A stretch of DNA of 64,000 nucleotides. Source: Clavelina lepadiformis. Taxonomy: Eukaryota; Chordata; Ascidiacea; Aplousobranchia; Clavelinidae. The notes under the pieces were generated by a model. It searched no databases, was not told where the DNA came from, and saw only the letters and a program-made list of their open reading frames with translations. This document shows positions 5,398-35,614 of this stretch, piece by piece. The position numbers and the translations under genes are program-made. Each line of letters begins with the position of its first letter. Position 1 is the stretch's first letter. The stretch spans positions 19,158,001 to 19,222,000 of the forward strand of contig NC_135242.1 of NCBI RefSeq assembly GCF_947623445.1, given 5' to 3'.

Positions 5398-6291
5398 ATG
5401 AGTGCACTTCAATTGCGCTGTAAAACTGATAGTGGAACTCATAGACTAACCACAAAATTATATGGCAACTCTACGCTACATGACTTAAAGAAAGCTATTA
5501 AAGCCGTTTCTGGCATTGCTGAGGATTTTCAGAAGATTCTGTCTGGTTATCCACCGAAGCCAATAGATCTGTCAAACACATCAGCGACTTTGGATAATTT
5601 GCGTGTAAAATCTGGTGACACTTTTACTATTGTTAATGTGGAACACAAAATGTCAAAACCTCCAGTTCTTGAACCATCTATGATTCGAAAAGAAGTTCCT
5701 GCAGACAATTCTTGTTTATTTTACAGTGTTTATTTTGCCTTGAATGGATATTTATCAGAAAGAGATTACAGCAGGGCAAAGAAGTTTAGAGGAGACATTG
5801 CTAATGTGGTTCAATCAAATCCATCCAAATATACTGAGGCATTTCTTGGCAAAGCTCCATCTGAATACAGTATTTGGATACAGTGCGATACATCATGGGG
5901 TGGTGGCATAGAGCTTTCAATTCTGTCTGAAATTTATCAAATTGAGATCGCCGCTGTTGACATCCAAACTTTGCGAGTGGACAATTATGGTCAAGATTGT
6001 GATTACAAGACAAGAGTATTTCTGTTATATGATGGCATACATTATGACCCGATGTTTTTAGATTCTGGTGATAAAAACCTGCCCATACAAACTATTTTTT
6101 CTGTGTCAGATGACCTCGCTTTGGCCAAAGCTTTAAAAATCGCTGAAATTGCCCATTCTGCGCGCCAGTACACCAATGTGGGGAATTTTAAACTACAATG
6201 CTTGACCTGTAACACCAGGTTGACTGGACAGAAATCAGCCCAGCAACACGCTAAAGAAACTGGACATGGAAATTTTGGAGAAATATGTTAA
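5398..6291 (+). CDS. YOD1: Ubiquitin thioesterase OTU1/YOD1-like, 297 aa
   Basis: A deubiquitinase of the OTU class; its relatives work with the AAA ATPase p97/VCP in ER-associated degradation. Domain order matches OTU1/YOD1: an N-terminal UBX-like ubiquitin fold (about residues 3-80, LQLRCKT...TFTIVN), the OTU domain (about 97-220) and a C-terminal C2H2 finger (CLTC...HAKETGH, about 264-285). Catalytic residues are visible: Asp103 and Cys106 in VPADNSCLFYS, and His215 in YDGIHYDP. WGGG at 167-170 is the usual substrate-loop block. Length is close to the family norm and there is no break. The stop codon overlaps an AATAAA, although a longer 3' UTR seems more likely. Confidence 0.93.
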   Translation: MSALQLRCKTDSGTHRLTTKLYGNSTLHDLKKAIKAVSGIAEDFQKILSGYPPKPIDLSNTSATLDNLRVKSGDTFTIVNVEHKMSKPPVLEPSMIRKEVPADNSCLFYSVYFALNGYLSERDYSRAKKFRGDIANVVQSNPSKYTEAFLGKAPSEYSIWIQCDTSWGGGIELSILSEIYQIEIAAVDIQTLRVDNYGQDCDYKTRVFLLYDGIHYDPMFLDSGDKNLPIQTIFSVSDDLALAKALKIAEIAHSARQYTNVGNFKLQCLTCNTRLTGQKSAQQHAKETGHGNFGEIC

Positions 6292-8425
6292 TAAACCACA
6301 GGTCACAATTTCACAACATAGCTATATTTACCTAATGATTAGTGTTATTGCTAAATTTAAAAAAAATGTTCTTGTATGTTCTTCATGCAGATTTTTTCAT
6401 GTACTTTGTGGTACTGTTGTCTTTTTTAAACATCAGAAGCAAACTTTAGCTTAGTTTTAAGGTTGTGTGCACAGATTTTTTATGTCAAAGTTCTTGCATG
6501 TACAAACACACTATGGAAAGGTTCCTGACCTCCTCTACTTTGCAAATTATTATAATTTTCCCTGATGTACTCTGAATGTTATAAGCAGTTTGTTTGAAAG
6601 TGGAATATGCATTTTAATACCTACCAGAGCCCCATGAACACAAGTTTTGCACCTGATATCTTATTGTATGTTGGTATAACCATTTAATGAAGAAATCCAC
6701 CAAAAGATTTACATTATTTGAATGGCGATAGTAATTTGATCATATGAATTTTTGTATGTGTGTAATCCTGGGTACCCTTTTGTACAATTGTCATTGGGAA
6801 GATTAACATTTTGTGTGTTGGGTAGTCAATTGCATTTACAATTGGCCTATTTATTATCACTAAAAATGAAGTTTTTAGCAGTTATTTTACCCACTGTTCC
6901 TAAGTAATGCTACCTCAGCAGATGTTTTTGAAATTACAAGTATAATATGTAGTTATATAATACAATCTTATATAATACACAGTTACTATACTGTGCTGAG
7001 ACAGTTGCAATGAATTGCTTTTTGACGTCAGGGAGATTGTGAAAAATAAAATCATTTTCACAGTTCACTGTTTTGGCAAGTAGCAATTATTTTAATAGTG
7101 ATTAAATGTGATTCTCTTTTTAACATATCGGTAATCCAAGAACACCACAGGATGTGTAAAAGGTGACTACATTTTTACATTTTTGACCTTACGCTATTCA
7201 CATTAACTGGTTTTGTTACTAGTATTTGATTCAGTTAATTAATGTTCATTTCCAATGCGTGGCATTAGTGAAAATGGACATGAAACATTTTCATTTGCGA
7301 CTTTGATAAATACTGTTTAAATGATAAGAGATTAGTTTTGAAGACCTAATTTGAAGCTACTTTACTGTACAATATAAATATCTGCATTACTATATCAACA
7401 AACGGAAGCCACGTGTGTTCACAGCCACACAGCGTCAGAAAAGAATACGAAGTCAGCTTCCGTTAACAGGTTGCTTTATGGTCGCTTGTCTGCGTTTCCA
7501 CTAAGCACACCGTCATAGCAGGCTATCAACCGTGAAATAGGATAGGGAGTACCGCACTTTATTATCTTTGTAGGAACAGAAGCCCATGGCTTTTTAAATG
7601 AAGATGGACCTCTGGTCTAGTGGGGGTGACCCGGCAAAATGTTTTCTAACTGATCATTTTATCGATCTGTTATCACTTGAATTTTGGTCAGAGATTTCCA
7701 GAAGGCAGCTGGCTTTGTTTAACGGAAAAGTATTTTTTCGGGCTATTGTGAAACTTCCGTCCTTCAAAAGTGCTTCATCGCTGTTATCGAGCACCACTTG
7801 AAAAACGTATTGGCTTATAGGTCAATGTTTCGGAAATTACTTTACGAAAACGTTTATCACTGTACAAACTACAAATCCATTGCAAGAATATTTAATTCGC
7901 AGTGCTATAACAAACGTCTGTTCACGTAAATACATTTCTACATTTGCTTGAATAGTGATCGGACCGGTCAAGTCAATCTTTTTATATCCCTGGCTGACTT
8001 ACATTAATTAATTATAATTGGTCAATTTGGCAAGATTTTTAAATAGCTTGAGACGAAAAGGTTTTGTTGAAACAGTCTTGCTGAGAAACAAAGTCAATTA
8101 ACCATAAAGTCAGACGCAAAACGCATTTAGAGATTTTTGGATTTTGGTGCTACGCATTTGATCTAGTAGCGTCACACCATAAACCTTTCTTAAAAATATA
8201 AGTAGCCTATAAATATAAACATAAAGCCTGCACCCGTGAGCGCACTCTTTCGGTTATTATTCAAGATTCATGACCATAGGTGAGAAATGGAAGTAAAACT
8301 GACTTATAAATTGAGATCATTGCGGGTTTAGAAAGCTCTCACTTCATGACCTCCGAACGTTGAAGATCACGCATGACTGCGCTTGCTTTACCAATTAGGG
8401 TGTTTAATAGAGTGTTCTATCTTAC
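6292..8425. other. 3' UTR and intergenic DNA
   Basis: About 2.1 kb with no exon, RNA gene or transposon end that I can support. Small frames at 6266-6454 and 7598-7801 have no homology I recognise. The first part is likely the YOD1-like 3' UTR; an AATAAA occurs near 7045. Confidence 0.45.
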
Positions 8426-8429
8426 GGTG

Positions 8430-8789
8430 GTCGGACGATTCAACCCACGGACGATTCAACCCCGGACGATTCAACTCGCGGACGATTCAACCCGCGGACG
8501 ATTCAACCCAGGACCATTCAACCCAGGACCATTCAACCCACGGACGGTTCAACCCGCGGACGATTCAACCCAGGACGATTCAACCCGCGGACGATTCAAC
8601 CCACGGACGATTCAACCCAGGACGATTCAACCCCGGACGATTCAACCCCGGACGATTCAACCCCGGACGATTCAACCCGCGGAGGATTCAACCCACGGAC
8701 GATTCAACCCCGGACGATTCAACCCGCGGACGATTCAACCCACGGACGATTCAACCCCGGACGATTCAACCCAGGACGATTCAACCCAT
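8430..8789 (+). repeat. Left minisatellite arm, about 22-23 units
   Basis: Head-to-tail copies of GGACGATTCAACCC with linkers AC, C, GC or A. A few units carry variants (GGACCATTC, GGACGGTTC, GGAGGATTC). It is complementary to the right arm, so a single strand could fold into a long hairpin in many registers. Confidence 0.95.
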
Positions 8790-9330
8790 TTACAAAAACG
8801 TCTACGCAGTTCGTTATCAGGCACGGATGCCGCTTTTACCACTATACCAATACACATCTTGTGTTGAAATAAAAACAAGTTTATGTACCGTGTTGTAACT
8901 AGTAGGCCTGCTTAGCGAAAAATAAATAAAGCCTACACGTTGATTAAAATTCAAACCTTAGAAACAACTGTTTGTTGATTGGAATGAAGATTGCACGCAA
9001 AAAAAGTCAATATAGTCAATTTTTTTTAACCTGCTCAGAATGCTATCACAAAACAAATTTCAGTCTTGTGCGACGTGTAGTATAGAAGTTATTAGGCCAA
9101 TATAAAGTCAAAATGTTACCTTAGGTCAAGATACGGTCAATTGTTTCTTTTAGGTCAAAATCTATTAAACTTGTAATTTTGTAATATTATTCTTCCGTTT
9201 TTCTCTTTTCTTGTACCGCAAACAATTCCAGTGCCCCAAATTAGAGGCCTACTTTGAACCAAAGCCACCAAGAGAGGGAAGGCCTTTCAGCGCGTCTGGT
9301 GACGTCACGATGTGAAGGCATTGCATTGCG

Positions 9331-9672
9331 TGGGTTGAATCGTCCTAGGTTGAATCGTCCTGGGTTGAATCGTCCGCGGGTTGAATCGTCCGGGTTGAAT
9401 CGTTCTGGGTTGAATCGTCCGTGGGTTGAATCGTCCGCGGGTTGAATCGTCCGGGGTTGAATCGTCCTGGGTTGAATCGTCCGTGGGTTGAATCGTCCTG
9501 GGTTGAATCGTCCGCGGGTTGAAAGGTCCGTGGGTTGAATCGTCCGCGGGTTGAATCGTCCGCGGGTTGAATCGTCCGCGGGTTGAATGGTCCGCGGGTT
9601 GAACCGTCCGTGGGTTGAATCGTCCTAGGTTGAATCGTCCTGGGTTGAATCGTCCGTGGGTTGAATCGACCT
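9331..9672 (-). repeat. Right minisatellite arm, about 22-23 units
   Basis: Copies of GGGTTGAATCGTCC with linkers, the reverse complement of the left-arm unit. Variant units also occur (TTGAAAGG, TTGAATGG, TTGAACCG), but their order does not mirror that of the left arm, so the arms have been shuffled or expanded independently. Confidence 0.95.
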
Positions 9673-9732
9673 GGAACCCTATCTTACATCACTCGTGACA
9701 GGGTTCAGTGAGAAGCAGAGTACCTCAGTTTT

Positions 9733-10130: not shown

Positions 10131-11438
10131 AATAGTAATTGCATATTTATTCATGTAGCTCAACACTACCAAAATTAATAAACAATACAATATCACCTTG
10201 CCTCGCTAAATCACTAACTACGCGACGTCACCATTCACCAATAGCAGGGTGCTTTACCGATCAGCAACCATGTGACGTCTCCAAATGCAAGGTGCTACTC
10301 AAAAACAGCAGGCTGAAATTGGTGTCGTCACGAGAAAATTTTAACATTTGCTCAGTTAAAACTGCTATTGTTACTTTTTGTGAAATATTTTTTTAATTAT
10401 TGTTGCCGACTCATTTGTGTAACTGCAGAAGTGTCGCTGGGAATTTGAGCGATGCCGGTTGGACACTCGGCGATGCTACACTGTCGTTGTTATACGCAAA
10501 AGGCATTATGGACGTTTACTCTACAGTTTCAAATTAAAAAAATGCATAACTTCGAAGAAAAATTGCAAAAAGACAAGCTCAGTTATCTGACACCGTACTC
10601 AACCCATGGTTAACTGATAATCACCACGTGCCTCGCTTATTCTATTATTATTACGCTATTAATATTTGTTTCCGTTAAATGCGTCTAACGAGGAAAGAAC
10701 AATCGATTGTATCGTTATTACAGGATGTTGACATCATCTACAAATAGCTTTATTATTGCAAATGGATATATGAAAGGTGAACGCACATATATAACGCAAT
10801 CACCGCGTTAATAAAGAGCTTGGCACAACAATAAATGTTTAGTAACAGGGATAACTACTTACTACACCATTTCAACGATTAAAGTTAAACGAGTAATTAC
10901 GCAATGAACTTTAAAAGCATAATATAAACTTACAGCAAACGCATTTAAAATAGGCCAACACTGATCAATAATTCCAATTGTATATGTTGTCGTTAAGACT
11001 GTAGAACAAATCGCCTGATTCATGATTTAACTTTCAGATCGCAAATTTGTACAAGTTACTTCAGGCTAAACTTTTAAAACAGAAAACAGTTTTAAAATGG
11101 AATCAAAACTTCAACCATTACGCTATATATTATATAAATTAATCGGCTTGGAACACTTCAAACAAAGCAAGAAAATAAAAACTAATTACAAGGAAGACTG
11201 TTAAACTGATGAAGCCGTTTTACTCGAAGCTGAAGAGACTGATTATACCTTTGGGCTACCCAGCTTGAGTTACTCAGAGTTTGATATTACTTAATAATAC
11301 GAAACAGGAATTATATGGAAACTTGTTAAGTTACTTTGAGCTATTCGATATTTTAAGTAAAACCAAGTAGAATTGACAAAATAAACACAAACAAGCAGAA
11401 ATAGAGATTTATCTTCTTTGAGAAAATGGCAAAATCAG

Positions 11439-14400
11439 TTATTGAAGAATAAAATCTTCAAGGGGATGCAATTCTGAAGCATTGTGTAGTGCTTCCACAG
11501 TTGCAGGTGTGGCTGTATGAAGAAAAAATATGAAAAGTTAAAAAGCTATTATATAATTGGTAATTTCATAAAGAACATCATATCAATGCAGTTTTATTGC
11601 AACCTTATAGAGGTTTTAATGTAAATCAACAGATAAAACAATGATACAATGCTCTAAACCAGGGCTGGCCAACCCGCGGCTCTTTGCCCGGTATTATGTG
11701 GCTTTTTCGTTCATAATGAACCCCCGAAAGAGAGCACATTTTACCCATTTTAGGCAGATAAATAATACAGAAAAGTAATCTCTACTGGCTAATGTTCAAT
11801 TGATATTTGCTAAATAATGACTGATTACATCAGATTTCGACCCAGTATAAAGATGATGAAACTGAAACAATATCTGATGCAGTATTATGACGTAATAAGA
11901 AACTACGTCATAAATCATAATGTTTATGATGTGGCTCTTTGCGGTTAACACAGTAAGAAGTGAGGCTCTTAGTCTCAGGCTGGTTGGCCACCCCTGCTCT
12001 AAACGAAGCAGCAATTAGATTAGACCCACGTAATGGAAAATAAGTTTTTAGTCCACGTTCTCGTTTCGATGCTTCAACCGCCAACTTAAGAGCATCAGCA
12101 ACACAAATGGACATGCACATTGGTGGCTCTCCAGTTGCTTTAGATCGAAGAATTCCAAGAGGATTTGGTGAATTTTTTAAAAGCTCAATATTCCACTCAA
12201 TGGGAATATCCTATAGCGAAGCATGTTTACGATATGAAAACATCCAATTTTAACTAGGAAAAATACTATTACGGCAAGATTCCAAAATTAACCTGATGGT
12301 AGTAAATTAAAAATTTGAGGCAAATAACTACATAAAATATCACCATTAACAAATCACTTACACATAGAGTTGTAATAACCAATAACATCACATGATGCTA
12401 TAAAAAAGATTCGCTATAAAAGTTATTTACCTTAGACGTAGGTGGCTTGTACTCCCAGGTACCATTTGTGACAAGTTGGCCAGAGCTTTCGTCATAAATC
12501 ATCTGTTCACTTGTCCAAAAGCCAATTCCCATCACGAAAGCTCCTTCCACTTGCCCAATATCAACAGACGGATTCAAACTGCACACAAAACAGAAATTTT
12601 ATTGCTATTGTGCACAATATATGACTTCTCTCACACAATGACATTACATCAATTTTCACACACAAAGCATTCTCTCACACAAGTAATTACATCACACCAC
12701 TAATTACACCAAAACAGATGCATGACGTCAAACAATAAAAACTAACACAAACCTTATTCCACAATCGAATATTGTGTCCACTTTCAAAATCTGATGCTCC
12801 CCTGTCAATACATCATATTCCACCTCAGCACAGGTCACTCCGTAGGTGAAGTAACTTCTTGATCCAAGCGTTGGGCTCCTATACCAAGTGATATGAGCAT
12901 GAATGACCTCAATATCAGTGCTAGTTAGTCTTTTATACAGTAATTGAGAACAAATTCACAATGAGAAATAGATTTAGGTACAGACATCAGATATCTCTCG
13001 TTTCATAATGACAACACAGGCAAACATAAAACATGGAAATATTGCTTTGAAACTTGTCAATAATTCACTGGTCAACAAAAATTTTGTTGCATTTCTACCA
13101 ACACTTGTTCTTACCTAGTTTGGGGGCGCTGAATCCGAATCTGACCTTAGTTTTTTTCTGCAAGGTCTAGATTTTTTGCAAATCGAGATTTTTTATTTTA
13201 TCTTTACTAAATTCAAATTTTCTGAAAAATTACATGATTTGTCAAATGACGTTCTTGCTTATAGTCGAATAACCAACCTCAAAACAAAAATAGATTCCCA
13301 GAAATTATTGTGTTACCACTAGCAATTGTATTTACAGACAATTAGGCACCAAATGTTTGAAAAAATGTAACAAAGAACATTTTTGCTGGTAAAATACATG
13401 TAATAAGCGAGTTTTTTTTGCAAAATGACATTGAAAAGAATGATGGCAATCCACAGTATTAACTTAAAGCTATCGATGAAAAGATGCAAAAAATTCAATT
13501 ATTCTACAAGCCCGGAAAAAATTTCCTCTTATAACTTCTGCGTTTGTACGCTTTTTGAGGACAGTCACGTTTGATGCCCCAACAATAATCCGCCATCATA
13601 TGTCGATCCCACCGACCTTGGTAGCGTTCTTCCCCTGTCATGAGATCCAGGTGGAAACGCTCTCCCTGTTCACCACTGACAGCCCCAAGGTTTTCAGGGA
13701 ATTTGTCCAGGTGGCTGTACAGGAAATGTACTTTTATGCTCATGTTGCATCCTAAATCACGAAACCCTGAGAGCATCTTGAATACAAGTGTTTCATAGTT
13801 TGGAGCCTTTCTGGTGCCGAGGAAGTTCTTTATAACATCTACAAAAGATAGCCATGCAGCTTTCTCCTGGACATTCATTTTCTGAATGAAGTTTTTGTCA
13901 CGAATAAGTGTAGGTATCTGTAGTCCATCAAACACTCCTGCTTTAATTTTATCATATGACAAAGCAGGGAAAGTATAAAGAAGATGATGAAAGGATTCAT
14001 TGTCAGGATTTAGACCTTTCACAAACTGTGTCATGAGACCTAGTTTGATGTGCAGGGGCGGAAAAACAATTTTGTCTCTGCTTACGATTGGGTTGTGTGT
14101 TACATTAGGCATGCCAGTTTGAAATGTTTCACGTAAGGGCCACTCCTTCTGTGTCCAATGTTTTTCACGTGCTCTGCTGTCCCACATGCATAGATAACAT
14201 GGAAATTTAGTGTATCCTCTTTGCTGACCTAGCAGAAAACTAACCATTTTGAGGTCAACACAAATGATCCAGTTGTGCTCATGATATCTGAGCAAATCCA
14301 TAACAATTCTAATGTCATCATGCCATTCCTTCAAGACAGTGGAGTGACCAACTGTAACAGCTCCATAAACATTTCCATTGTGTAAAAGGACACACTTGAG

Positions 14401-17400
14401 GCTGCGCTTGGAACTGTCCAAAAACAATCGCTATTCTCCTGGATCATACGAGGAGATACCCAATTGTCCGAGAAGACCAGGTATATCGTTGCAATATACC
14501 AGCTTATTTTCCTCTGAAAAATAGGGAAGAAAGAGTTCTTCTCTTTTTCGAAAAAAAGGATACCTTTACAGATTGATCTAGAACAGGCATGTGCAACCTT
14601 TTTCACTGGAGGGCCAAATACAAAATTTTGAATGACAACGCGGGCCACATGATTTTTTCAGAAAAAATTAGTATCATAAAACGACTTTCCTATGCAGTTT
14701 ATATAGTTAAGAAATAGATTTAATTTAGTCCACGACACGAAAATGCGAAAATTTCGAAAATTTCCATTGCTTTGATGTAAACTGCATCAAATAGTGATGG
14801 CTAGTATGAACTTCTAACATTTTGCTGAGCACCACGCGGGCCGCTTGGAACAACCTGGCGGGCCGCACTGCGGCCCGCGGGCCACTGGTTGCACATGTCT
14901 GATCTAGAACCTGTTTTTCCTTGATTCTGGAGTCTAAGAGCTCAGCTGCTTGCTTGGGCAAATCTAAATCACGCACTAAGTCATTCAGTTCTGATTGGTT
15001 AAAATGCTGAAAAGCTACTCTGGTTTCACAAGAAGAGTGTTCAGATTCTGTATCTGTTCTTTTATACTCCATTTCCATAACCTCTTCCCTTTCCGATTCA
15101 GTTTCCTCATCTTCAGAAAATGTAAAACCACTAAAGACTAGAGGAGGGAATCTATCAGAGTGCGGAACGGGTCATATAGCTGATGGTATACTTGGATAAT
15201 AAAGCATTTGTCGGCTCTTCCTGCCAACACCTTTTATATTTACCATGCAAAAGTAGCAGTCAGTCGTGTGATCTTGGGGTTCATGCCACACCATTGAAAT
15301 GCCAAAAGGCAGACACTTCCGCTTTCCTTTTGTCCAGTCTCTGAGCATTTCTTCGCAGTTTTGGCACACAATATGTGGAGACCATTTCATATCTTGATCG
15401 CCAAGATGGATGTCAAAGTAAGCTCTGTAGGCACGCTTCACGAATGATGTTATATTTCGTCTTTGACGAGAAAGCGTGTACACACCACAGATATAACAAA
15501 ATGAATCAGGTTTATTTTTGCATTTACGTCTACTAGAAGAAGCCATGACCTGAAAAATATATGTGCTTAACTGTGGAACAGAGGTTTACCACATACAACC
15601 AAAAAGAATAAAAAACCACGGTTCTAATTAAGGCTACCAGCAGACGAGTGTAAAATAGAGCTTATAGCCTATCCTACAGCATCTATCCGCAATACCTCAC
15701 AGCCTCACTATAATCAAATTGCCTAACTTCTTCAAACGCCCTTAAACAGCAGTAGGCTAAACTTAAAAGAGCTGCAAAGCTTCTATCTGAAACACTGGTA
15801 CTGTACCATACAGAGAACGCACACGAAATATGCGCCAGAAACGAAAAAATTTAAATTGTCGATTGCATGAAAACTAGAGCATGCATAAAGAAACTGATTG
15901 CAGATTTGAAATCAGCATCCCAAAATTGTGTAGAATCAGTTAAAAAACCTCATGCAACAAGAAACAAAAAAAAAATGTTGACCAGTGATATAATCGAAAT
16001 AAACACCCACATGTGTGACACTGTGAGATCTACATCTTCACTGTAGCACTTCGCTATTAAATTTTTCCACGTAACATCTTTCCTCATCTTTGCTCTGATA
16101 GGTTCAATTCTAGAATTCAGAACCTCACAACATCCAATAACAGACTGTGAAACATACACACAGCAATTTGGCATTACCCACAAGAGCAAAATGCATTTTA
16201 TTATGTTATATTAAACATATTTAATGAGGAGTTACTCAATAGTATGCATGCATCCAGATTACAACAAGCTAGCATTGTATGCAAAGCAAAAAATTTTCAA
16301 ATCACCTTGCATGTCGCTTCACTGGTCATACTACCACCAGTAAAATCGCTGTTTGGGCCAGTCAATGTGCTCGCTCGTTGTACAGAAATTAAATCCATAG
16401 AAATTCCAAGCTTGTAAGCTGCCACTTGGGTAACCTGCAAGAAAAACATTTTGAAAACATTTACATTCAAGTACAACCTTCACATATGTTGCCTATTGAA
16501 GGAGTACCAAGGTATGCGTAAAACATGATCAAACAAGTTCTTTTTACAGCTTACATGCCAATAGAAAACAGGCAAGAAATTCTGTATTGTTTTGATGTAC
16601 CTTTGTGTTAATTCCCTGGCCACATTCAATTCCACCATGAGATATAACCACAGAGCCATCATTGGCATAAACAGCCATTAACACAGAGTATTTAAATAGA
16701 CCCAAGTCCAATCTGGAACGTATCACAAAACACAAGGCAAAAAATAAATACAAAGTGCTTAAAGCAGTAAGAATTCAACAAAAAAATTAAACACCAAAAC
16801 CTTAAGAACATAACTGTTACACATGTATGTTATATAAAACATTTTTCCTACTTATATTTCATTGGACTTATGGCAATGCCTTTCTTTTTCCATTTATTTG
16901 TTTCATTGAATGCTTCAATGTTTTGTTGCCGCTTCCTCACATTGCATTTGTCCAACAGATCTAAAATTTATTTCGAAACCCATGTTTTTGTGCATGGTTG
17001 AACATTTCTAATAACATACAGAGATTAATGAACACTGGAATTGTTTGAATTCGGGTAAATTTTACTTTGATAGATGTCTCTAATCTGGCAATACATAAGA
17101 ACAGTTCCCTTCAGATTGGTTTGTCCTTTCTTGTAGAGGTTGGCAAACTTCACATCAATGGCATCTTTTCCAAGGAAAGATGCAACATGTTCCATCATCA
17201 GATCTGCATGTGCAGTCATCTGCAAGCTTCCTATAGTTAAAAGAAAGTGCCAGTCAATTACTTAAAAATTATAATAATTTCTAATTAGCATATGATCCTA
17301 TTTGACAAACTGTTACAATAATCTCAAGTTGGGTTTTACGTGAACAAAAAGAGTTTATTTGTGGCACATAACAAAGCATCTAAAACAAACACAGTTGCAC

Positions 17401-20400
17401 ATCAATCAAAAGAAATCTTATACATATCGGTGAGTTCAAAAAAACAGTTACCTGGCGCACGACACCAAGTAGTAGACGGTATATTGGTCTTGCAAACGTA
17501 AGACTTATATCTTCGATTGGGACAGTAATATGCTACAACACATTTTACCGATATAAGTAATGCTAACAATAGTACTGGTAAATACAATGTATTGCTCTTA
17601 TTTGTTACTATATTTATTTATAAGAAAGCTTTAAAGCAGGGTAGAAAACATGTATAAAATAAATCTTTTTAGCATAAATATTTTCACCACTGTCAGCAAA
17701 CAATTCCACAGTTGTTGGATCATCGACTTCAGCCTCAAAAACAGAAGCTCCACTGTTTCCATATAACTGGCAATCTACTCCTTCCATTATTCCATTGTCA
17801 TTAAACCCTAACAAAATTTAGAAACAGATCTAAAGCACAGTAAATTTAAGCGCAAAACATAAAATTTTTATTTTGAAAATGAAATCAATGCTCTTGAGCT
17901 GTCTTTAGTAGGCAGGTTAGAGCAGGGTTTCCAAAACTTTTTGGGCCACGAATCCTTATTTATGAAACTGATATTTTTTTGGAGCTCAGCCTTATGTCAT
18001 GTCAAATTTTTCTGAGCAACCGGCACGGAAGGAAATGCAGAACAAAAAATAAATAACATCAATGGGATGGATGAGGTTGCTTATACAATAGCAAAAGCTT
18101 ACAAAATCATTTCAATTACGAATCACTGTGGCAATTGTCTATTTTTAAATTTTATCACATCGTCATGGAACCCAGTGGTCCGCAGACCCTAGTTTGGGAA
18201 ACCCTGGGATAGAGAACTCTGTATACCACTTCCCTTTAACTATACAGTAATATCCCAGTTAAGCTTGCAACATTTGATTAAAAAAATATACATTCGTTTT
18301 CTACAGCAATTTATTGGTACTTACAGTAAATTCAACAGGTCAACTTGTGACTAAAAAAGTTAAAGTCATACTAAAATTCAGGATTTAAACATTTGTAAAA
18401 GGACTACCAAAGCCCCCATTCGGTCAGATTGCTATAAATATGATTATATACAAATTGCGTTTGTTGCAGGCTACTTACAAAAAAAATAAGTTACAGCAGT
18501 TACAGCACCCATCACTCGTAAATGGTTACCAATAGGTACCTTCAGTTTTGCTGATACATACTTTACAGAATAATACACCTATATAGCTACTGTATTTACA
18601 AAAACATAATCGCTATTTACAAAACTTTGCACAAACTGTTCAGAGTAAAGTTGCAAACTTAACCAGGATGTTACTGTTTTTTAACAATACGATAGATCAC
18701 TTCATCTTACATATGCAAATGGAAAATAAATGTGCAAGGTAAATACTTCTCAAAGTTCAGTAAATGCATCAAAACCTAATTAACAAGCAAAATACTGTGC
18801 AGTAATCACATCATCCCACCTAATCTGTACTTGATAGTGTAGGGAACGCGGGAACCAAATGTGGACATGCAAGTTTTAAGATCAGCATGAAATCGAACTG
18901 GTCTACGGGTAACATATGAACCCAATGTAGCTGCTGCCGCTGAAATGAGCGAATTTGTGGCCTTCCCCCCATAAGCTCCACCAATTCTCTTCGTTGTGAT
19001 CTCAATTCTGAGTAAATATGTGACACAAGATATACTGAGACTTCTAATAGTCAAATACCAAGGACTGCCATAGGTCAAGGTATGAGGGATTATTATAACA
19101 ACACCTGCTAAAACGTATATATTCATGCAGAAGAATGTTACTTGTTCTGAGATACACCAAATGCATAAGATATGACATTTTGAATATAAATATGAGCTTG
19201 TGAGGCCGAATCCAACGTAAATCCTCCCTCCTCTGTGCATTCAGCCCGGCAAATTTGAGTTTCCATGTAGAAGTGATACTGTGAGCCCATGTTAAACTCA
19301 CCACTTACCTAAACAAAGTGTTTATTGCAGTAAACAATCAAATCATGCCATAAATCAGCATTCCCACTTACACTGCACAAACAAAACTATATGAAGCACA
19401 GTTGCATGATTTTAATTGCCCTAATTTGAGCCTTTCATGAACTGCTTAACACAAATTGAAATGGTTTGCTTAGATACCACATGCTTGGCCTTCTTTAGGG
19501 CTTCATCTGGATTGCCCATTTCAACTGGTGGTACAACATCTGGATAAAAAGATGCCTGGGTAATTGCATCCTGTGTCGTCAGAATAGGTTTCTGAATGTT
19601 TTTGTAAGTAACTTTCACTGCCTTAGCAATAAGCACTGACTGCTCCCATGTTTCTGAAAAGTATAGTTTATGGTGTAATGCTACACTATAGCTTGGCAAT
19701 ATCTAATATATCATTTATGTATCTTTGATCTTTTAGTTGGACATGTTTCTGGATAACCTGCTATCACCAAAGCAACAGGTTGCCCAGCAAAATCGACATG
19801 ACTTGTAGCTATGATAGGCTGTGATGTATCAAATGGATACAAATAAGTGTTTTGAATTTCAGATGGAAAATTGTCGCCTAAAAAGAAATGTAAAAAGATT
19901 TACAAGTTTTAAGAATTTTTACAGAGCCCCTGATACATTCTATACGAAAAGAAGCTAATTGCTGTACCTGTGACGATAGCTACAAAGCTCGGCATTTGTT
20001 TGGCAAGGGAATCATCAATATTATCAATGTCTGCATTGGGCACTTCAGATAAAACAAAGGTACAGAATAATTCATCATTGCTTGGCACGCGGTCGCTGAT
20101 GTATTGGGCCTCACCAGATGCCTGTGATGTGATAAATAAAAAACTGAAAGATAGATTGTAACAAAATAACAAGTTTTTTGAATCACTTGGTTCATCATGT
20201 TGCCAAGCATTACTACATGCTGCAGTGTTTTTTGTAGAACCCTGTGTGTTATCTTAAAGCCACAATGATGAACTAATCGAGTTAACATTAAATACTTAAT
20301 CCGCCAAAGATGTCACAATATTAAGAAGAAGACAATTTAAAACTATGATGTCAGTTTCACATTAAACCTGAAGGATTCCAGAAAGTTTTGGAACTTCTTT

Positions 20401-23400
20401 CGACACTGGGTAAGTTGTTTCATCTGTTGTAAATGTCTGCATTCCTTTCGAAACAGGTCGCACCAGTGGGTAAACTCCACTTTCTATACCAGGACCAAGT
20501 TTGCTGGGATTGCAAAGGGACAAATAGAACTGCAAAAAATTAGCTTTATCATCAGCGAAGATAAACTTAAATATTTATTGAAGCCTAAGTAAATAGAACA
20601 AAATTGATATAACAACATCACAAGACCAAGTCCAGCCATATCAGCAAACATTTTACTTTGTAAAACAAACCCAAGGCCAGGTTTCGTTTGTATTCTGAGG
20701 TCCCAGTTTGCTTGATTTGATCAGAAAGCAGGTTAAGTGCATCTGCAAAATAAAGAGTACTCAAGCACAAGAATGTTAACACATGTCAAATAATTTGTTC
20801 ACGTGACTACAGCAGCGATTAGAAAAATTTATCAGTTTTTTGTGTAATTGGTTGCCAGTGCTGAAAGTTGTAAGGGTTACCCCTATGACAGGATTTAATG
20901 AGCCAATATAATACACGAGAATTTTATTGACATTACCTTTGAGAGTTTCACTGACAATTGATTTCCCTTTGAGGAACTCTTCCGTTTTTACTGCCCTTGC
21001 AAATGTTGGGCTAATTCCACCAAATACTGCTGTAAACTGTAAAATTTGACTTTGATCTTCCGACAACTCAGCAAAAAATGCAGCATTCACATACGCATGA
21101 GCATTCTGCACAAATGTAATAAGATTCACATGAATAGACGTTCGATGCAGTTTTAGTGGGAATGGGGTTATCTGTCTATTGAAAAGAGGCACAATGTCAG
21201 ATTACATTACGATTCACACAAAATACTTAACACAAAGTATTTCGTGTCATGCCATGCCTATTGTAAGCTGCATTAAAAACTCTTTAAATTTTAACAACAA
21301 ACCTGAGAACGTGGCATGACTTTGTATGTTTTCATTTTGAATTGCTTGCCAGTTAGTTTAGGAATGGTAATAGAAATAATCAACTGCCAAAAATATTAAT
21401 AAATAAAAATATGAAATAATACAAGTAATATATTAGTTATCTTAAGATATCTAGTATAATTCATATAAAACTTTACACTCAAAAAGTTACTTAACATGTC
21501 ACAATCCAAGAATTAGGTTTTATTCATGACAAAAACTTCACATTTTATCTTTGAAATTTGATTCCTTATGCATATCTCAATTAACACACCCTCAAATGCA
21601 GGTTTGCTAGAAAGTTCTTTGCAAAAAAAATAAAATTGCGGAAGATAGTGAGCAACTTCACTTTCTTACGTCAGAACTCAAAGCAACACAAACCGCCATT
21701 AACAACCAATTTTTATGTTTGGCAATTTTCTATGTTTGGTGAATGTATCAAAGATTGGTCAATGACAGTGCTTGACTCATGTGATAAACTTTAGAACTGG
21801 CATTATTAGGATACCTTATCCGTAAGATGAAGTAATGTTGAACCATCAGCTGCAAAAACAGTGTGAGTAGAATATTCATCCGCAACAATATCATAAACTT
21901 TAACTTTTGCCTTGGCCGCTTCCAACAAAACACAAACGTCAGATGGAAATTCAGGATGTTGACATTTCAAGGCAACATTACCAGCCCAAGATCCAGCCTA
22001 CATATTATATACAAAAATATGCTATGTTCACATGACATATTAATGATATGAGATAAAACTATAAACATGAATTACAGACATACTATATGCAAATTATGTA
22101 TATTATCAGCACTAAACTGTTTGACAGCAGATAGTCCAGTAACTGCATAAACTATCTGATTAATCCCATTCATTCAGATTTCATAGTTTATTTGTACTAT
22201 GTGACAATAATTCATAATAAAAGTTAGTATGATCAAACAATGCCTCACATTTCTCACAGGAACACTGGCTACTTTCTTCAAATGCTTTGCTATTGGTTCA
22301 AAGGTCACTGATTCTGAGGATCGTTTTGTCAATGTTTTCAAAATTTCATTCAAGGTGACTGCAGCACCAAAATCGATGCTGTCACCATGGTTGTCAATAC
22401 TTCGAAGAACCGGCAATTGCCCAATGTCAATCATAAAGGCATATGATGATGTCAGTTTGTATACTCCTGACAAAATAGAAGACATCTTTTGAAATAGAAA
22501 TTTAGATGATGGACTCTAAATCGTAGGTCACAGAATATCTATAAAAGTTTGAAATATATATATAGCATAATGATTTTGATTCAATGGCAAAAAAACGATA
22601 CAAAACTAGCATTAATGTATGGACCTGAGCCAGTATTCCCGGATATTAATCGCCAGGATCGTTTCTCCAAAATCAACTCCTGCAGGAATGATTTCAATTC
22701 TGAAATAGATGATGGTCGAATCCAAGTAGTAGAATCCCCTGCAAGCTGAATTGGACGCAGGTCACCTAATCTCATTTTCTGCTTCTTTGCACACTCAGTT
22801 GTGGTTAAATCCTTTCAAAAATAATTGGTAATATGAAAGGTTTCATAAAATTTATTCTCGGCTGACAAAATTTCAAAATAAATATTATACGCAATATAAT
22901 GTACATCCGAGACCTCTATATCTTGACATTTATCCCTCAATGATGAATCTGCATCACAAGCAAAGCATTTCATTGCATCAAGTATTGAACGATATCCCGT
23001 ACATCGGCAAATATGACCATCAAAATTATCTTCAATAGTTTGTTGATTTGGGGATTCCTCCTCTTCCAGCAAGCTTTATAAAAACATTTTACTGTGACTT
23101 ATTAAGAGCTCAATTAACATTCTATTAAACAAAACAACAACATGTGACACACTAACTTATGACAAGCAAAAATAGGAAATTAAGGATCCAGTCTAGTAGG
23201 ATCAGTAAAAATCTACAACATAAAGCTCTAAGCAGATATATAAATATTACCTATGCATTGACATCACGAAACCAGGGGTGCAATAACCACACTGACTTGC
23301 ACCAAACTCAGCAACCCGAGACTGAATTTTATTAAAACCTTTTCTTTGTGATCCGATGCCTTCAACAGTGGTTATTTGGCACCCATCCACTGAACACAAG

Positions 23401-23940: not shown

Positions 23941-26900
23941 TTTTTAGGATAAGTTTAAAGCAGTGGTTTCGAGATCGTCCATGGACACTTGAAAACGGAC
24001 GATTTTTGCGTATGCGTCCATGGACGATTTTAGGATAAGCTTAAATAACGGATATGAGGAAAGTGTCCATGGACTGTTTTAAGAAAGGATTAAATAGTAG
24101 ATATGATAAAAGTGTCCGTGGACTGCTTTGGAACAGGCTTATATAGTCGGTATGATGAAAGCGTCCATGGACGATTTTAGGATAAGCTTAAATAGCGAAT
24201 ATGAGGAAAACGTCCATGGACGATTTTAGGATAAGCTTAAATAATGGATACGAGGAAAACGTCCATGGACGATTTTAGAATAAGCGTAAATAGTGCATAT
24301 GATGAAATTGTCGATGGACAGTTTTGAATTTGGCTTAAATCAATTTTTTTGCAACAAAGCAGCCATGGACGGTTGTTGAAATAGGCTTAAATCAGTTATT
24401 TTGCAACGAAGCGTCCATGGATGGTTGTTGAAATAGGCTTATATCAGTTATTTTGCAAAAAAGCGTCCATGAGTGATTTTAGGATAAGTTTAAAGCAGTG
24501 GTTTCGAGCAGAGTTGGATCAATTACATTATTTCAGTTCAATTACAATTACAATTACAATTACTCCCTTACATGTTTCAATTACATTACAATTACAATTA
24601 CAATTACTCCCTTACATGTTTCAATTACTCCGTGCTAAAAATATCAAATTACAATTACAATTACAGTTATAATTACTGTTAAACATGTAATTGATTAATC
24701 ATAAATTCAACTTCGGTAGAGAGGTGCTCTTTGAAAACCGTAGCGACGTAATTAGCAACAATCACAAACTATTCATGTTTCATTCATGATACGTAGAATA
24801 CCCTTTAATTAAAAAAAACTCGAACGTTTTCGAATATTTCAACTATTCGTAATCATGAGTACTGAAAAATACAAACACAGAAAAAATTTTTAAGCGACTG
24901 TTAACAACCAAAAGTTTGAGCGACTGGCAACGACTAACAACGAATAGGCTACAAGACAGGCAATGAAATGTAATCAAACGAATACACAAAGCTGATAGCG
25001 GTAAGGCGCCAGCGATAAGGTGTGTATTTGTGTAAAATTAAAATAAATTCAAAAGGAAAGAAGCTCCTGATAACTACAAATTACAAAATTTTGGTTCGCA
25101 TTTACATTTTAACTTGCTCAAAAACTGTTGGATTGCATTTGATGAACATTAGGGTGCGAAAAGTTTCTGGCCCCAGTAAATTTCTTCTTGCCGTATAAAA
25201 GTTACCCGAAATTGAAAATATTCTTTCTGATGGGGCTGATGTTGCTGTTAGTCCCAAATAATCCTTGGCTAAAGTAGAAAGCGGGGGAAGTTCTTCTGAC
25301 TTCTTCTTCCAATATATTAGTGGGTCTTCATCGAAATGCATGGTTTCTAGTTTCTACCCCCAAATAGCTGTCGACTTCACTTATTGAATTTCTCGGTCTT
25401 TTCTTTTTTAAGCCTTCTGCCATAAAGTTAAATAGCTTTGGCTTTTTTGCAGGGTTTTCATCCTCTGTGCTACAACTTTCTTCGTCATCCTTGCCAAGTC
25501 TACTTGCCACATGAGTTTTTAGCAAACGTATTGCTTCTTCTTTTTCAACGTCATCTTTAATCCAGCTGTTTTTAAATCGTGGATCAAGAAGAGATGCAAT
25601 TCTGTTTTCCGGAGAATTTATATATGGCAAAAACCTTTTAGAAACAGAGTCTTTAAGATTAGCTGCCAGTTTCTGGCAATAGTGGAGATTTGAGTTTTTT
25701 AGTAGTTCCATTGCTTTCAGTAAGCCAAGCACTACCGGACAAATGCAAGAGGATGTTACAATATTTTCTCCTTCAACTTGCTGCATTGCTTCCTTGAAAG
25801 GCAGTAGCACACTCATGAGCTCACTCAATGCCAAATAATCTTGATTTGTTATTTTTCCCCGTGACTGGATCAAGGTGAGAGCCGCATTAACTTCTTCGTG
25901 ATGCTTTAAGACACTTTGCAACATAACAAGCTGGGAATTCCATCTTGTCACATTCTGTGCTCTTAACGTTATTTTTTTACGTTGCAAATAAGAGGTAGCA
26001 TTTACAGATTTTCTTACTGAATTTACAATTTTGGCCACCTTTCCCAGCTTTCCTTTCCCAACGTAAGACTTAGCAAACTCCGAATGTTGCAGACAATCCT
26101 TAAATCAAAGTTGTTGTGTATGAGCAAAACAGCTTACTCTTTCTGGTAAGTAAGTGAGAAGAGCATGTAAATCAGCACCCTCCTCGGACATTTCTTGTTC
26201 AGGATCAGGATTCAACTATTTCTCATTGTCCTCATTGATTTCTTCACCAGTTTTATGCAGTGTGAACTCAGGAAGGGAAACCTGAAATGCTTTTATCATG
26301 GAGGAAGCATTGTCTGACACAACCTTTTTTACTTTTGTTGTAAGTCTAAACTTTTCTATTACGTTGTCATAAGCCTCAACAATGTTTTCAGCTGTATGCC
26401 GTCCTAAAAATGAGTCCACTGCCAGGACAAAGCTGCGTAGCTTCCATTCTGCATCAACAAAATGCATAGTGATGCCCAAGAAACTTGTCATGTTGCGGTT
26501 AGTCCAGAGATCAATTGTCAAGTAAACATTTGACAAACGTGCAATTTCACGTCTCGTCTCTTCTTCCATTTGCTGAATAACCGTTGGTATAAGGGAATTT
26601 CTAAATGTGGAGCGGCTTGGTATTACATATCTTGGTTCAGCAGTCAACAACAGATTTCTGAATGTTTGACTATCTACAATACTTAATGGTAACTGATCAC
26701 AAGCTATTGATTTGAGTAGAGCTTTTGTTAATGCTTTTTGAGTGGCATCATATGAAGCAAATCGCTGGGAAGAAGAAGTTTGAAAAAATGACTTGATAGG
26801 TGGTTGACTCTGATCTACCTTTGTCTTCTTCGTGTTTTCCTGGTGTTTTCTTTTGAGGTTTATATATTTAGGATAAAGATTGGGAGAACATCTCTTCAAA

Positions 26901-27595
26901 TGTGTGATCAAGTTTGATGAAGCCTTGGTTGAATACTTGAATTTCTTTTTGCAATTGTTGCAGCAAGTCTCAGTACTGGTCAAAGATTTAAAAAAACTCT
27001 GACAGTGGCGTAGGAAAGGGTTCAGCACAGGTTTCGGAAGAGTTTATTTGCTGTTCATCCATTTTTGAAATATTAAGATTTAGAGTAGACTATATTGTAA
27101 TTTACTAAGTTTTCTGTTACTGCTGAAGTATGGGAAACAGTTTAGCATGGCTGAATTATCTAGTTAACGAGGCATGCATAGCACACCTATGTAAATAGGC
27201 TTAATCATTTTATGTTGTGCTTGTCAGGTCTTAATAACAATGTAATTGAAATTGTAATTGGGCAAAAATTTTATCAAATTACAATTATAATTATAATTAC
27301 ACAAAATAAAAATGCTTCAATTACAATTACATGAAAAATGTAATTAATTACATTCAGCTCAATTACAAATTACAATTGATCCAACTCTGGTTTCGAGATC
27401 GTCCATGGACACTTTAAAACTGACGATTTTTGCGTAAGCGTCCATGGACGATTTTTGCGTAAGCGTCCATGGACGATTCTAGGATAAGCTTAAATAGCGG
27501 ATATGAGAAAAGCGTCCATGGACTGTTTTGGAACAGGCTTAAATAGTCGGCATAATGAAAGCGTCCTTGGGATAGGCTTAAATAATAGATATTGG
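23941..27595. repeat. CCATGG-rich minisatellite array, split by a hAT insertion
   Basis: About 60-base units containing the palindrome GTCCATGGAC followed by gattttaggataagcttaaa and a degenerate atatgaggaaaa stretch. About ten units lie at 23941-24508 and a few more at 27390-27595. The hAT element at 24509-27389 interrupts the array inside gtttcgag|atcgtcc, a site that also occurs uninterrupted at 23958. Copy 2 has about 260 bases of unrelated DNA here, so the array is specific to copy 1 or was lost from copy 2. Confidence 0.9.
24509..27389 (-). mobile_element. hAT transposon with decayed BED-finger transposase
   Basis: Terminal repeats CAGAGTTGGATCAATTAC and its complement at 27372-27389, a perfect 8-bp duplication gtttcgag at 24501-24508 and 27390-27397, and subterminal runs of CAATTA at both ends. 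The minus-strand transposase begins near 27062 (MDEQQ): a BED zinc finger (CCNNCKKKF...HLKRC), the RNase-H-like core (26216-27028, LTIDLWTNRN, VSDNASSM), a central part (25328-26038) and the C-terminal dimerisation region (25102-25341, TSAPSERIFSISG). It is broken: a frame slip in a T run near its start, stops around 26040-26215, and a frame change near 25335. The well-kept ends and target duplication indicate a fairly young insertion. Confidence 0.92.
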
Positions 27596-29040
27596 AAAGA
27601 GTGACTGATAAAATGTTTTTGATTAACACGTATTTTAAATGGTAATAGTTTTATTTATTTCCATCTTATCACGAATTAATAAGGGGCGTGAAAAATCATG
27701 AACAAGCGAATTATACCATAGTGCTTTAAAACATATGTTATGTTATGGTAGAACATGCTTCTTATTGATTAAATGAAAAAACTTACTAGTTTTAACTAAG
27801 GGGCTCCCCCCAACATAAATACCAACCAGAATGCTTTTTCGGGCTTTAATGTTTATTTGTCACATTAGCTAGTTGCCATCAAACCAGAAAGCTAGAAACA
27901 TGCTGCATATCAGAAAACATATGATCAAAGCAAGATATAACAATAATAATTCGTGCATGTCCTGGGTTGCCATGTACTGTATATATTTTATTGATGTTTA
28001 AATTCCCTTGGATCAAGACTCAGTTCACTAAGCTAACTAGTTTAAGTTGTTTTTATTAGATCTTGGCTTTCCAATTGAAGTTCAAGAAGCTATTGCTAGA
28101 GGTACAAAAACCTACCCTGGAAAGAAACGAAACGCATTTTTGTACCCCAACATTTGTTTTGACAAAACAGTATGTCATAATATAAAGAATATTGTCTTTA
28201 GCCTTTATACCATTAATTTTTTTTATCAAAGCAGCAAACACAAAATTGATGAAAAAAATTTGTTAAATGTAAATTATTTTGTAGTTACCATATGCTACTT
28301 TGGATAATTACCGATTAATTGTTAGTCTTGGTATTGTGACAGTTACGTCACGAGTCATGGGTTGTTTTATAAATGCTGAAATTCGATTTTGGGATCTTGT
28401 GATATAATTGCTGACCAAACTTAAATTTTTGGTAATGACTTACAGATAAATTACGCAACCTTGGGGTGTGACTACTATATAAATACCAATGTAATGTTTG
28501 CAATCTTCCTTTTTATCTTTCACTTGTTACTACTGCGCAATGTAACAGCAGTAAGCTTTGCCCAAAGGTGTAATCTTTTGTGTTTGAGAATAAAAATGGG
28601 AACTTTATCGTTTAGTAATATGCGTATCCAGAATTTAAGCAACTAAACAGCGTTAGTCACGCCGTTTTAGGAATGGGAACTCATACCATCGAGTCAGAAG
28701 CAAAACAAGTTTTCAATTTAATAGTACTTACCTCGCTCATATCGTAACAATAGCCGCCAGTGTACGCGGTTTTTATGGCGAATATGGTTGTTATGTAATA
28801 CTTCACAAAAGTAATATCACAATAAAATTTTATTTGTCATAGTATCAGTTTCAGAATTAAGCGTTTGTCACATTACAAAAATAGAAGGAGTTGAGACAAC
28901 GCAAATGGGCTCAAGACTGCATTGTTATAATGCAATGTCCATGCTAAAAACATAATGGGCTGTTCGTCAAACATGGTACGTTGTCAAGCATTGAGAGCAA
29001 GTTATCGATGACCTATTTCCACAAAGTAAATCGCCAATTG
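27596..29040. other. Gene-free tail of duplication copy 1
   Basis: This stretch matches 48240-48661 and 51753-52745 in copy 2. A short frame at 28055-28150 (LLDLGFPIEVQEAIARG) is partly kept in copy 2 at 51760-51880, but the two differ in frame further on and I know no homologue, so I do not call it a gene. Confidence 0.5.
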
Positions 29041-32000
29041 GGGGAAACCAGTGTAATTTGGACCCCTGTGTAAATCGGACCAAGGCTGATTTCAGACTAA
29101 TCGCGGTAGGTGACGTCACAAACATCACGCGACATGGAAGACGTTAGCAAGAAAATGTGGCAGCAGTTGTGTTTGGTCTCGTTTCTTTTGTGGTCTAGTT
29201 ACGAAAACGCAAGTAAACTATTAGGGGTGCTTGATCTTATTTTAGGTCATGCGTCATTTCAATATAATCGGAGGCTAGAGGCAGGTAGGAAAATAATTTA
29301 AACGTTTCGAGACAACTAAAACATTCGCAGATACTGTACCATGACAGTATTAGACTGTCAGTTTAAAATTTTAGTGAAGAGCCTGAAAGAAATTTCAGCT
29401 TAGATTTGTGTAAAATGGACCGCAATAAAACGTGTAATTTGGACCCCCCCCCCCCTAAATTACACGTAGAGGCAGATAACATTACCTGTTTTCTTAGGAT
29501 ATTAAACTTTCATTTTGTGATCCTTCTGATCTTGAACTTAGTACAAACATGACCACAAAAGCTGAGCGTAAGAGCAAAGGAGTGTATGGAAAGTGGGATG
29601 AAGAAGCGATGCGACATGCAATAGGGGCTGTAAGAGATGGCACAATGGGTATAAAAAAAGCAGCCGAACAGTTTCATGTCCCCAAAACGACTCTTCTAAG
29701 AAGACTGAAAAAGAAGAACAAGATTGCTCTTGGCAGCTGCAAGATGTTAGGAAGATCTACTGACCTCCCGGAAGAGATTGAAAACCAATTGGCAAAGCAT
29801 ATTGAAGATATGGAAGCCAGGTTTTATGGCTTGACATTGATGGACCTTCAAAAGCTTGCATTCCAAATTGCAGAAGCTAATAACATTTCTACTAGATTCA
29901 ACAAAGAAAAGAAAATTGCTGGCTATGATTGGGTGAAAGGATTTCTGAAAAGGCATCCAGAAATATCTCTTCGATCCCCGGAGGCAACATCACTAGCGAG
30001 AGCATCCGGATTTAACAAACCACAGATAGCTAAGTTTTTTGAACTCATTCATGACATTTATGAAAAGAACAACTTAACTGCTGCCAGAATTTATAATATG
30101 GACGAATCTGGGATAAACGTTGTTCAGAAATTGTCAAAAGTTTTAGCTAAGAAGGGGAAACATCAAGTTGGCTCGATAACTAGTCAAGAGCGAGGATAAA
30201 ATGTGACGGTTATTTGCTGCATGAGTGCAGCAGGAAATTTTGTCCCACCAGGCTTCATCTTTCCACGAGTGCGTATGAAGGAAGAGTTGAAGGATGGAGC
30301 TCCTCCAGGAAGCATGTTCACTTGTCAAGTGAGTCATGTTTAATTGTCTAGCAATCCTACCAGGCAAAACCCATCTTTTCTATGTTGATGCTATGTGTGC
30401 CGACATTGAATCTATGTAGGACTGTCAAAATGGTGGTTGTTACCACTGGGATGCTAAAGATGTCAAATTTTATAGCCTGCACTATTTACGTTTGCTAGTG
30501 TTTTCAAATGTTTCAACCAATTGGGCTATAAATTAATTAAACTATGCTCATACTGACAATTTGTTATTTGTAAAAATTGGTTTTATTATCACTGTATGGT
30601 GCATAAATTTGGCTTTGCTTTACAAAATGTTAGTCTCTCTATGCTCAATAGCTCGTAATAAATTTTGAACCTTTTTTCAGAAAAAGGGATGGATGAACAA
30701 CGACATATTCTTGGAATGGATAAAACACTTCAGCCAGCATGCAAAGCCTAGCCAAGAAGAGAGGGTCCTGCTGATCTTAGATGGACATAAAAGCCACACG
30801 CACAATATCGAAGCTTTAGAGTTGGCATCAAAAAGTGGTGTTATTATGCTTTCATTACCACCACACACCAGTCATCGGATGCAGCCATTAGATTTAACTT
30901 TTTTCAAACCACTGAAGACCTATTATTATCAACAAATTGAGCAGTGGCTGCGTGCAAATCCTGGACGAGCAGTCTCTGCGTTTCAAATTTGTCGTTTGTT
31001 TGGTCTTGCATACGGAAAAGCTGCAAATGTTAGCTGTGCGGTGAATGGATTTCGAAAGGCCGGAATTTATCCAGTTAATATGCTGGTCTTTAATGACGGT
31101 GATTTTGCTGCTGCTGATGTCACAGATCAACCCGATCCAGCTGAGAATTCAGATGATCTAATCGCCACCACAAGCTCAGCTCTAGTGGAAAATGCAAGCT
31201 CAACTGCAGTTAACACCACTCCTGCTTGCATCAACAAAACAGCTGAAACCAGCAATCTAGTTTCTGACATGCAAGCCAGCCCTGTAGGCTTACTCTCATC
31301 CATTTCTTATTCTGAGAAAAAAAAAAGTGTTGTAACTGTCACAGATATCAGCCCTCTACCAAAGCGAATCCGATCTATGAATCCTGGTACCAAACGGCGA
31401 AAATCTTCACGCGCCACAATTTTGACAAGTTCTCCTCATAAAAACACTCTGAATAAAAGAGACAGTGATGTGACAAAAAGAGGCGGTGCACAAAAAACGA
31501 AACAGAAGAGAGGAAGGAAAACAGAGAACAAACAGAATTCCATCTGCCTGGTGTGTGGAGATTCTGCAGATGAAGACTGGATTCAATGCAAAAACTGCAA
31601 GGAATGGACCCATGAAGAATGTGCTGATATTAGTGATTCCAAGTATTATTACTGCGACAACTGTTCGTAAATGTGTGTTTCTGTTTTTGCATGGGTTGTT
31701 CTATTTTTGTGAGTTATCGATGGTTCCAGATTGCACAATCACACATTGTGTAAATTGGACCCCTCATTTGAAAAAATTAAAATTGACTATTTACCAGCAG
31801 TGTCATTGAATTAGAAACTTATACAGTGAAGTTAGGTGCTATCCGAATGAAATTGAATATTAAGTTGTATGTTTTGTTCAAAAATGGAAGGGGTCCATTT
31901 TACACAACAGTTGTGTAAATTGGACCCTTAGCATGAAAAAATTTAATTTGGTAGTGCACCTCCAGTTTAAATTATTTAAGCCCGATACTTCGTTATGTTG

Positions 32001-34881: not shown

Positions 34882-35614
34882 CGATTGTATCCTTATTACA
34901 GGATGTTGACATCATCTACAAATAGCTTTATTATTGCAAATGGATATATGAACGGTGAACGCACATATATAACGCAATCACGGCGTTAATAAAGAGCTTG
35001 GCACAACAATAAGAGTTTAGTAACAGGGATAACTACTTACTACACCATTTCACCGATGATAGTTAAACGAGTAATTACGCAATGAACTTTAAAAGCATAA
35101 TATAAACTTACAGCAAACGTATTTAAAATAGGCCAACACTGATCAATAATTCCAATTGTATATGTTGTCGTTAAGACTGCAGAACAAATGGCTTGATTCA
35201 TGATTTATCTTTCAGATCGCAAATTTGTACAAGTTACTCCAGGCTAAACTTTTAAAACAGAAAACAGTTTTAGAATGGAATCAAAACTACAACCATTGCG
35301 CTATATATTATATAAATTAATCGGCTTGGAACACTTCAAACAAAGCAAGAAAATAAAAGCTAATTACAAGGAAGACTGTTAAACTGATGAAGCACCTTTA
35401 CTCGAAGCAGAAGACACTGATTATACCTTTGAGCTACCCAGCTTGAGTTACTCAGAGTTCATTTACTTAATATTACGAAACAGGAATTTTATGGAAACCT
35501 GTTAAGTTACTTTAAACTATTCGATATTTTAAGTAAAACCAAGTAGAATTGACAAAATAAACACAAGCAAGCAGAAATAGAGATTTATCTACTTTGAGAA
35601 AATGGAAAATTCAG
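34882..35614. other. 3' flank of gene B
   Basis: Closely matches the flank of gene A at 10702-11438. It contains AT-rich sequence likely to include the polyadenylation region. No separate gene is seen. Confidence 0.5.

Follow-up and report, generated by a model that had tools for sequence, protein, structure and literature searches.

The question raised by this locus is whether two minisatellite arrays lying in inverted orientation form a mobile element or a local rearrangement. The locus is contained in a 64,000-nucleotide stretch of the Clavelina lepadiformis genome (C3:19158001-19222000, hereafter the window), and the assembly searched comprised 209 Mb in 95 contigs. The initial annotation described a foldback element with inverted minisatellite arms, and this form was borne out: the core GACGATTCAACCC was matched 23 times in forward and 22 times in reverse orientation, the repeat arrays were located at 8432-8788 and 9329-9668, and the two arms (Table 1) are about 92 % complementary. 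The element occupies positions 8426-9678 of the window (1253 bp, plus strand, A end to the left and B end to the right) and thus ends one base before 9679, the end first proposed. The target duplication had been given as the 8-bp word tatcttac; it is instead the 9-bp CTATCTTAC, because the C preceding that word is also repeated. When the first 1000 of the 1253 bases were folded as a single strand in silico, a value of −185.5 kcal/mol was obtained compared to a mean of −122.5 kcal/mol for 20 shuffles. The strong predicted folding is due to the inverted arms and, being an in silico result, makes no statement on the cell.

Table 1 Features of the element and its flanks, in window positions
Feature	Position	Strand	Remark
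Left target-site duplication CTATCTTAC, 9 bp	8417-8425	none	Flank comparison
A-end terminal motif GGTGGTC, 7 bp	8426-8432	+	Absent from opposite end
A arm, array of 23 units	8432-8788	+	Core GACGATTCAACCC reading inward
Spacer without transposase domain	8789-9331	+	Collinear with 5' interior of coding copy L050
B arm, 22 units in inverted orientation	9329-9671	-	
B-end terminal motif GGTTCCA, 7 bp	9672-9678	-	Letters are those of the minus strand
Right target-site duplication CTATCTTAC, 9 bp	9679-9687	none	Flank comparison

Searching the genome with the whole element gave at least 209 matches. Two 21-base end patterns had 209 and 295 matches with at most two mismatches, while the reversed patterns had 1 each. 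A sample of 56 copies was examined: the window copy, 21 elements in 20 loci found by similarity (L011 holds two), 4 copies with a MULE hit, 20 further complete copies and 10 end pairs. A fifth fetched MULE copy, L053, was left out of the sample since its second end was beyond the fetched stretch. The last 30 copies and the 4 MULE copies were picked for having both ends listed, and for these 34 the pairing of A and B ends is given and complete copies are favoured. The duplications were exact over 9 bp in 43 of the 56 copies and over 10 bp in 4, matched at 8/9 in 2 and at 7/9 in 1, and were lacking in 6; the independent exact 9-bp cases number 42, because L068 and L069 have one duplication in common. 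A flank match of at least 8/9 was found in 45 of the 56 copies, whereas 2000 shuffled flank pairings gave 0.097 such matches on average and never more than 2; chance is therefore excluded. In the 22 copies chosen independently of their ends, one A and one B end were present in 22/22, with GGTGGTC and GGTTCCA as differing 7-bp ends in all of them, and the duplications were exact over 9 bp in 17, exact over 10 bp in 2, 8/9 in 1 and lacking in 2. The search for other loci and the flank test suggested with the initial annotation thus revealed common outer borders and new duplications, not the solitary structure that would speak for a chance match of the 8-mer.

The tandem-repeat build of the arms, with its shuffled unit variants, would agree with a minisatellite that was duplicated locally in inverted orientation and has flanks alike by chance. 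However, the same ends occur together with fresh duplications at loci dispersed over all nine chromosomes fetched or listed. The end-pattern counts and the duplications of the 56 copies rule this explanation out, and its probability is negligible.

Profile searches placed MULE-domain matches inside copies of the family. PF10551 (MULE) scored above the cut-off in L049, L050 and L053, and the 432-residue frame of L053 contains a partial FLYWCH domain in addition to the MULE domain (PF04500, 26.6 bits with a cut-off of 23.6, covering profile positions 27-62 only). No THAP domain match was found in the three coding copies scanned. A search with the L053 frame gave at least 99 matches, with 97 of 590 candidates scored, and at least 20 of the matches had 70 % identity or more. 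Eighteen of 20 such matches were on the body side of an A or B end, at most 1.6 kb from the nearest, among the first 100 listed ends of each kind; two of the 18 sit in one element. The other two were a match at C5:10872687 (72 %), which touches an A end from outside that element, and one at C4:21122714 (70 %), with none of the listed ends nearby. The residues D157, D219 and E351, which we take to be the DDE triad of the transposase, were invariant in an alignment of the transposases of five families of this genome.

The common ends at many loci, the 9-bp duplications and the coding copies with the same ends together identify a Mutator-superfamily foldback transposon. Mutator-like elements usually duplicate 9 bp (8-10 bp) of their target, and both duplications of this size and, in same-ended relatives, a MULE transposase were found. 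The Phantom type rests on domain content, i.e. the FLYWCH and MULE domains of L053, and foldback, as a description and not a clade, refers to the long inverted arms of tandem repeats. We thus consider it highly probable that the window element is a non-autonomous, internally deleted Mutator-superfamily DNA transposon, Phantom type by domain content, with foldback-type ends. Counting against the transposon reading are the 6 of 56 copies without a duplication and the 2 of 20 transposase matches outside listed elements. A foldback element of the hAT or P superfamily was also considered. Tandem-repeat foldback arms are known in the P-type Galileo, as described in passages of two papers (PMC3688188, PMC4079207), and the 8-bp duplication counted in the initial annotation would suit hAT. 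Against this, the duplications are of 9 bp, none of the 56 copies has an exact match of 7 or 8 bp that reaches the element border, and the enclosed protein is of the FLYWCH and MULE kind. Membership in hAT or P is very improbable and was ruled out by the duplication length and by the FLYWCH-MULE protein with no THAP match.

The spacer of the window copy follows the 5' interior of L050 in the same order, with 96 % identity over 264 bases and 99 % over 117 bases. As the window copy also had no MULE match, it is a deletion derivative. Spacer sequence was common to 31 of the 40 loci of the non-coding sample, over at least 300 bases in 23 of them and with a median identity of 95.7 %, and 9 of the 40 had no spacer sequence in common. 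Several internally deleted forms have multiplied. Two MITE-like sequences with inverted ends AGGGCAACC/GGTTGCCCT are present in another locus (L014:4878-5481 and 5727-6381). Their body resembles part of the window spacer (9002-9327) at 83 % and, at about 91 %, part of L047, which belongs to another MULE family.

The transposase of the coding copies would act in trans on these ends and would insert the element by a 9-bp staggered cut, and its DNA-binding domain may recognise the units of 15-16 bp as repeated sites. The initial annotation gave a unit of 15-17 bp, of which 15 and 16 stood and 17 did not: in 46 two-armed copies nearly all steps between successive unit starts were 16 bp (1289) or 15 bp (669), and the mean period in the family was 15.66 bp. 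This corresponds to roughly one and a half helical turns. Control by helical phase was considered and rejected, since the succession of 15- and 16-bp steps wandered by 0.70 compared to 0.63 when shuffled, with 0 of 80 arms at p < 0.05. The mean period differed little among arms (SD 0.076, about 0.106 expected).

Unit numbers in the 46 copies ranged from 7 to 90 in the A arm and from 3 to 64 in the B arm (medians 21.5 and 22). They were equal in the two arms of 5 copies only, and their correlation was weak (Spearman 0.25, p 0.098). In L010 (2403-4910) one arm has expanded to 90 units, about 1.4 kb, which is near satellite size. The most informative pair was L068 and L069, located 63 kb apart, with flanks identical over 61/61 and 60/60 bases and spacers differing at 2 of 557 bases. 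The pair may result from a duplication in the assembly or from two haplotypes. Their arms contain 27/27 and 19/39 units, respectively, with outer and inner ends alike and the middle altered, in agreement with the earlier suggestion that the arms change length separately. L023 and L024, which sit at sites with differing flanking duplications, match at 99.7 % over their full 1367 bp, and their arms are of equal length. The two comparisons together indicate that the arms are carried over at insertion and that later change is internal and occurs arm by arm. Each arm would in general gain and lose units internally with its partner not in step, as seen in the one pair, possibly by slippage, unequal exchange or gap repair. 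The arms are not fully independent, as a copy's own B arm ranked in the top five by similarity in 15 of the 46 cases, when about 5 were expected. Its rank spanned 1 to 46 of 46, and the idea of the arms as matched partners was rejected, the arms being neither tightly paired nor fully independent.

Four further MULE families, represented by L031/L048, L094, L095 and L096, had proteins 33, 38, 33 and 30 % identical to the L053 frame, respectively. In each of them the FLYWCH and MULE domains both scored above the cut-off and arrays of 15-16 bp were present in inverted orientation. One copy per family was examined, except for the L031/L048 family, in which such an array was present at 19/19 loci, most of them cut before the second arm. 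The flanking duplications were GTAATGCCC in L048, CTTTGTGTG in L094 and CCAATGATT in L096. In L095 the flanks, compared by eye, gave CAAGATTT with T or C as the next base (8/9), the longest common word found by the program being another one of low complexity. L029, one of the four putative families in the motif scan described next, was not included in the five families, because its single array is short and its protein does not significantly match the family of the window element.

A motif, GACNNTTNA, was present on the inward strand of all 7 arms scanned, from four putative families, and had 0 matches on the outward strand; its six columns common to the scanned arms were equalled by 0 of 500 shuffles. 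A prediction of this motif, of arrays and of a 9-bp duplication was written for L095 and L096 before they were fetched. The predicted arrays were found in both, in degenerate form (64-73 % matches at a period of 15-16), and of the predicted 9-bp duplications one was exact (L096) and one was the 8/9 match seen by eye (L095). The motif itself was found in neither of the two, apart from one outward-oriented match in the right array of L095 and none in L096, and was rejected as a general binding motif. The period persists in families where this motif does not.

It is possible, though we hold it only tentatively, that selection keeps the spacing of the arm units and not their letters, and that the arrays are a scaffold for multimeric transposase assembly. 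The suggestion is based on the five families, which keep the period of 15-16 bp with differing units and with the other transposases 30-38 % identical, and on the identical period of 15-16 bp published for Muta1 in the part of the mosquito study available to us (PMC5225508). If so, the protein would fix the spacing and the recognised word would drift with the protein. An equally tentative alternative is that the arms are passive, the transposase needing the terminal bases alone and the arrays arising as a side effect when replication slips or gaps are repaired. The wide range of unit numbers would fit this, as would the short-armed L062 (23/3 units), which still has an exact 9-bp duplication, the order of the steps without phase control, and the unit words, which differ among families, together with the failure of the motif GACNNTTNA in both new ones. 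The conservation of the 13-base core argues against passive arms (84-100 % per position over 2076 matches, a figure inflated by the two substitutions allowed in finding them), and so does the period kept in five families. In addition, the foldback element Galileo is described, in the text available, as binding the THAP domain of its transposase at the arm repeats (PMC3688188).

Other repeats are present in the window. Minisatellite arrays with GTCCATGGACG units (23966-27570) flank two open frames on the minus strand (25328-27028), whose matches to DUF659 and to a BED zinc finger are weak and below the cut-offs. The longest word common to the flanks is only 7 bases, and the whole may be a hAT-like element that ends in repeats. 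A direct duplication connects 10701-22888 and 34879-43823, with about 92-98 % identity in ungapped pieces. Its spacing drops from approximately 24.2 to 23.8 and 20.9 kb along its length, which points to indels that distinguish the copies. A second direct-repeat pair (28255-29021 and 51974-52735, 94-95 %) is about 23.7 kb apart. Remains of DNA transposons are seen as open frames with Tc5/DDE_1 and PHD finger matches (29549-31670) and as an open frame with a DDE_Tnp_4 match (50383-51096).

A survey from 2019, in the sections available, reported limited evidence of MULEs in chordates, with one Ciona savignyi sequence, and named the significance of long, variable MULE inverted repeats as an open question (PMC6446971). 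In the present tunicate genome, FLYWCH-MULE families with array arms number at least five, and one family has approximately 200-300 end sequences. With these and with the L068/L069 pair, in which almost only the arms changed, the turnover of arms becomes measurable within one genome, and so does its bearing on copy success.

Elements of this kind are already known from insects and nematodes. No earlier description of the window element was found in the literature listings searched, the search on Clavelina being too broad to be informative. The TU elements of sea urchins have long inverted arms with internal tandem repeats of roughly 15-bp units and 8-bp duplications; no sequence description of them was found in the literature listings searched. 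The likeness to Drosophila FB proposed initially holds for the foldback form, FB being compared by description, and the nearest published relatives are instead Tm1 and Muta1/Muta5. According to the accounts available, FB/NOF, Tetris and Galileo share the long inverted arms with internal tandem repeats (PMC4079207, PMC3688188), and Tetris also the duplications of 8-10 bp (PMC4079207), but their units are different and the Galileo transposase is of the P type (PMC4079207, PMC3688188).

The survey, in the same sections, places Muta within Phantom and includes the Ciona savignyi sequence in Phantom group 20, which resembles our families in its animal FLYWCH-MULE transposases, duplications of 8-10 bp and Tunicata hosts, and differs in its one chordate sequence compared to at least five families in this genome (PMC6446971). 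Muta1 and Muta5 of Aedes aegypti belong to the Phantom group, and FLYWCH was found in 13 of 14 mosquito families; in Muta1 the terminal motif precedes 12-bp repeats spaced 3-4 bp apart, giving a period of 15-16 bp, and in Muta5 it precedes 15-bp repeats (PMC5225508, from the passages available). Judged from these descriptions, they have duplications of 8-9 bp and derivatives of varying repeat number in common with the window element, whereas they have about 9 repeats per end and duplications of either 8 or 9 bp (PMC5225508).

Tm1 is a Mutator/Foldback family of root-knot nematodes and, as far as the available text describes it, shares with our family the 9-bp duplications, a FLYWCH and MULE protein, many non-coding derivatives, and differing 7-bp end motifs followed by GGA and by inverted arms whose tandem units differ in number (PMC3169594). 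It differs in the letters of the end motifs, in having GGA where our B end has GGT, in its unit of mostly 14 bp (motif C, CGATTCAGTATCGC) compared to 15-16 bp, and in its 1-9 units per arm compared to medians near 22 (PMC3169594). The unit CGATTCAGTATCGC as such was not found in our family, the agreement being limited to the first seven bases, one of which differs in M. hapla, where the published unit reads CGTTTCA (PMC3169594). With a free register, the unit likeness to Tm1 was weak, with p values of 0.02-0.13 for M. incognita and 0.22-0.26 for M. hapla. At the A end, however, the 7 terminal bases are followed by GGA CGATTCA, i.e. ten consecutive bases in the position of motifs B and C of Tm1 (PMC3169594), an agreement noticed post hoc. 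At the level of sequence this agreement provides a lead to common descent, rather than proof of it.
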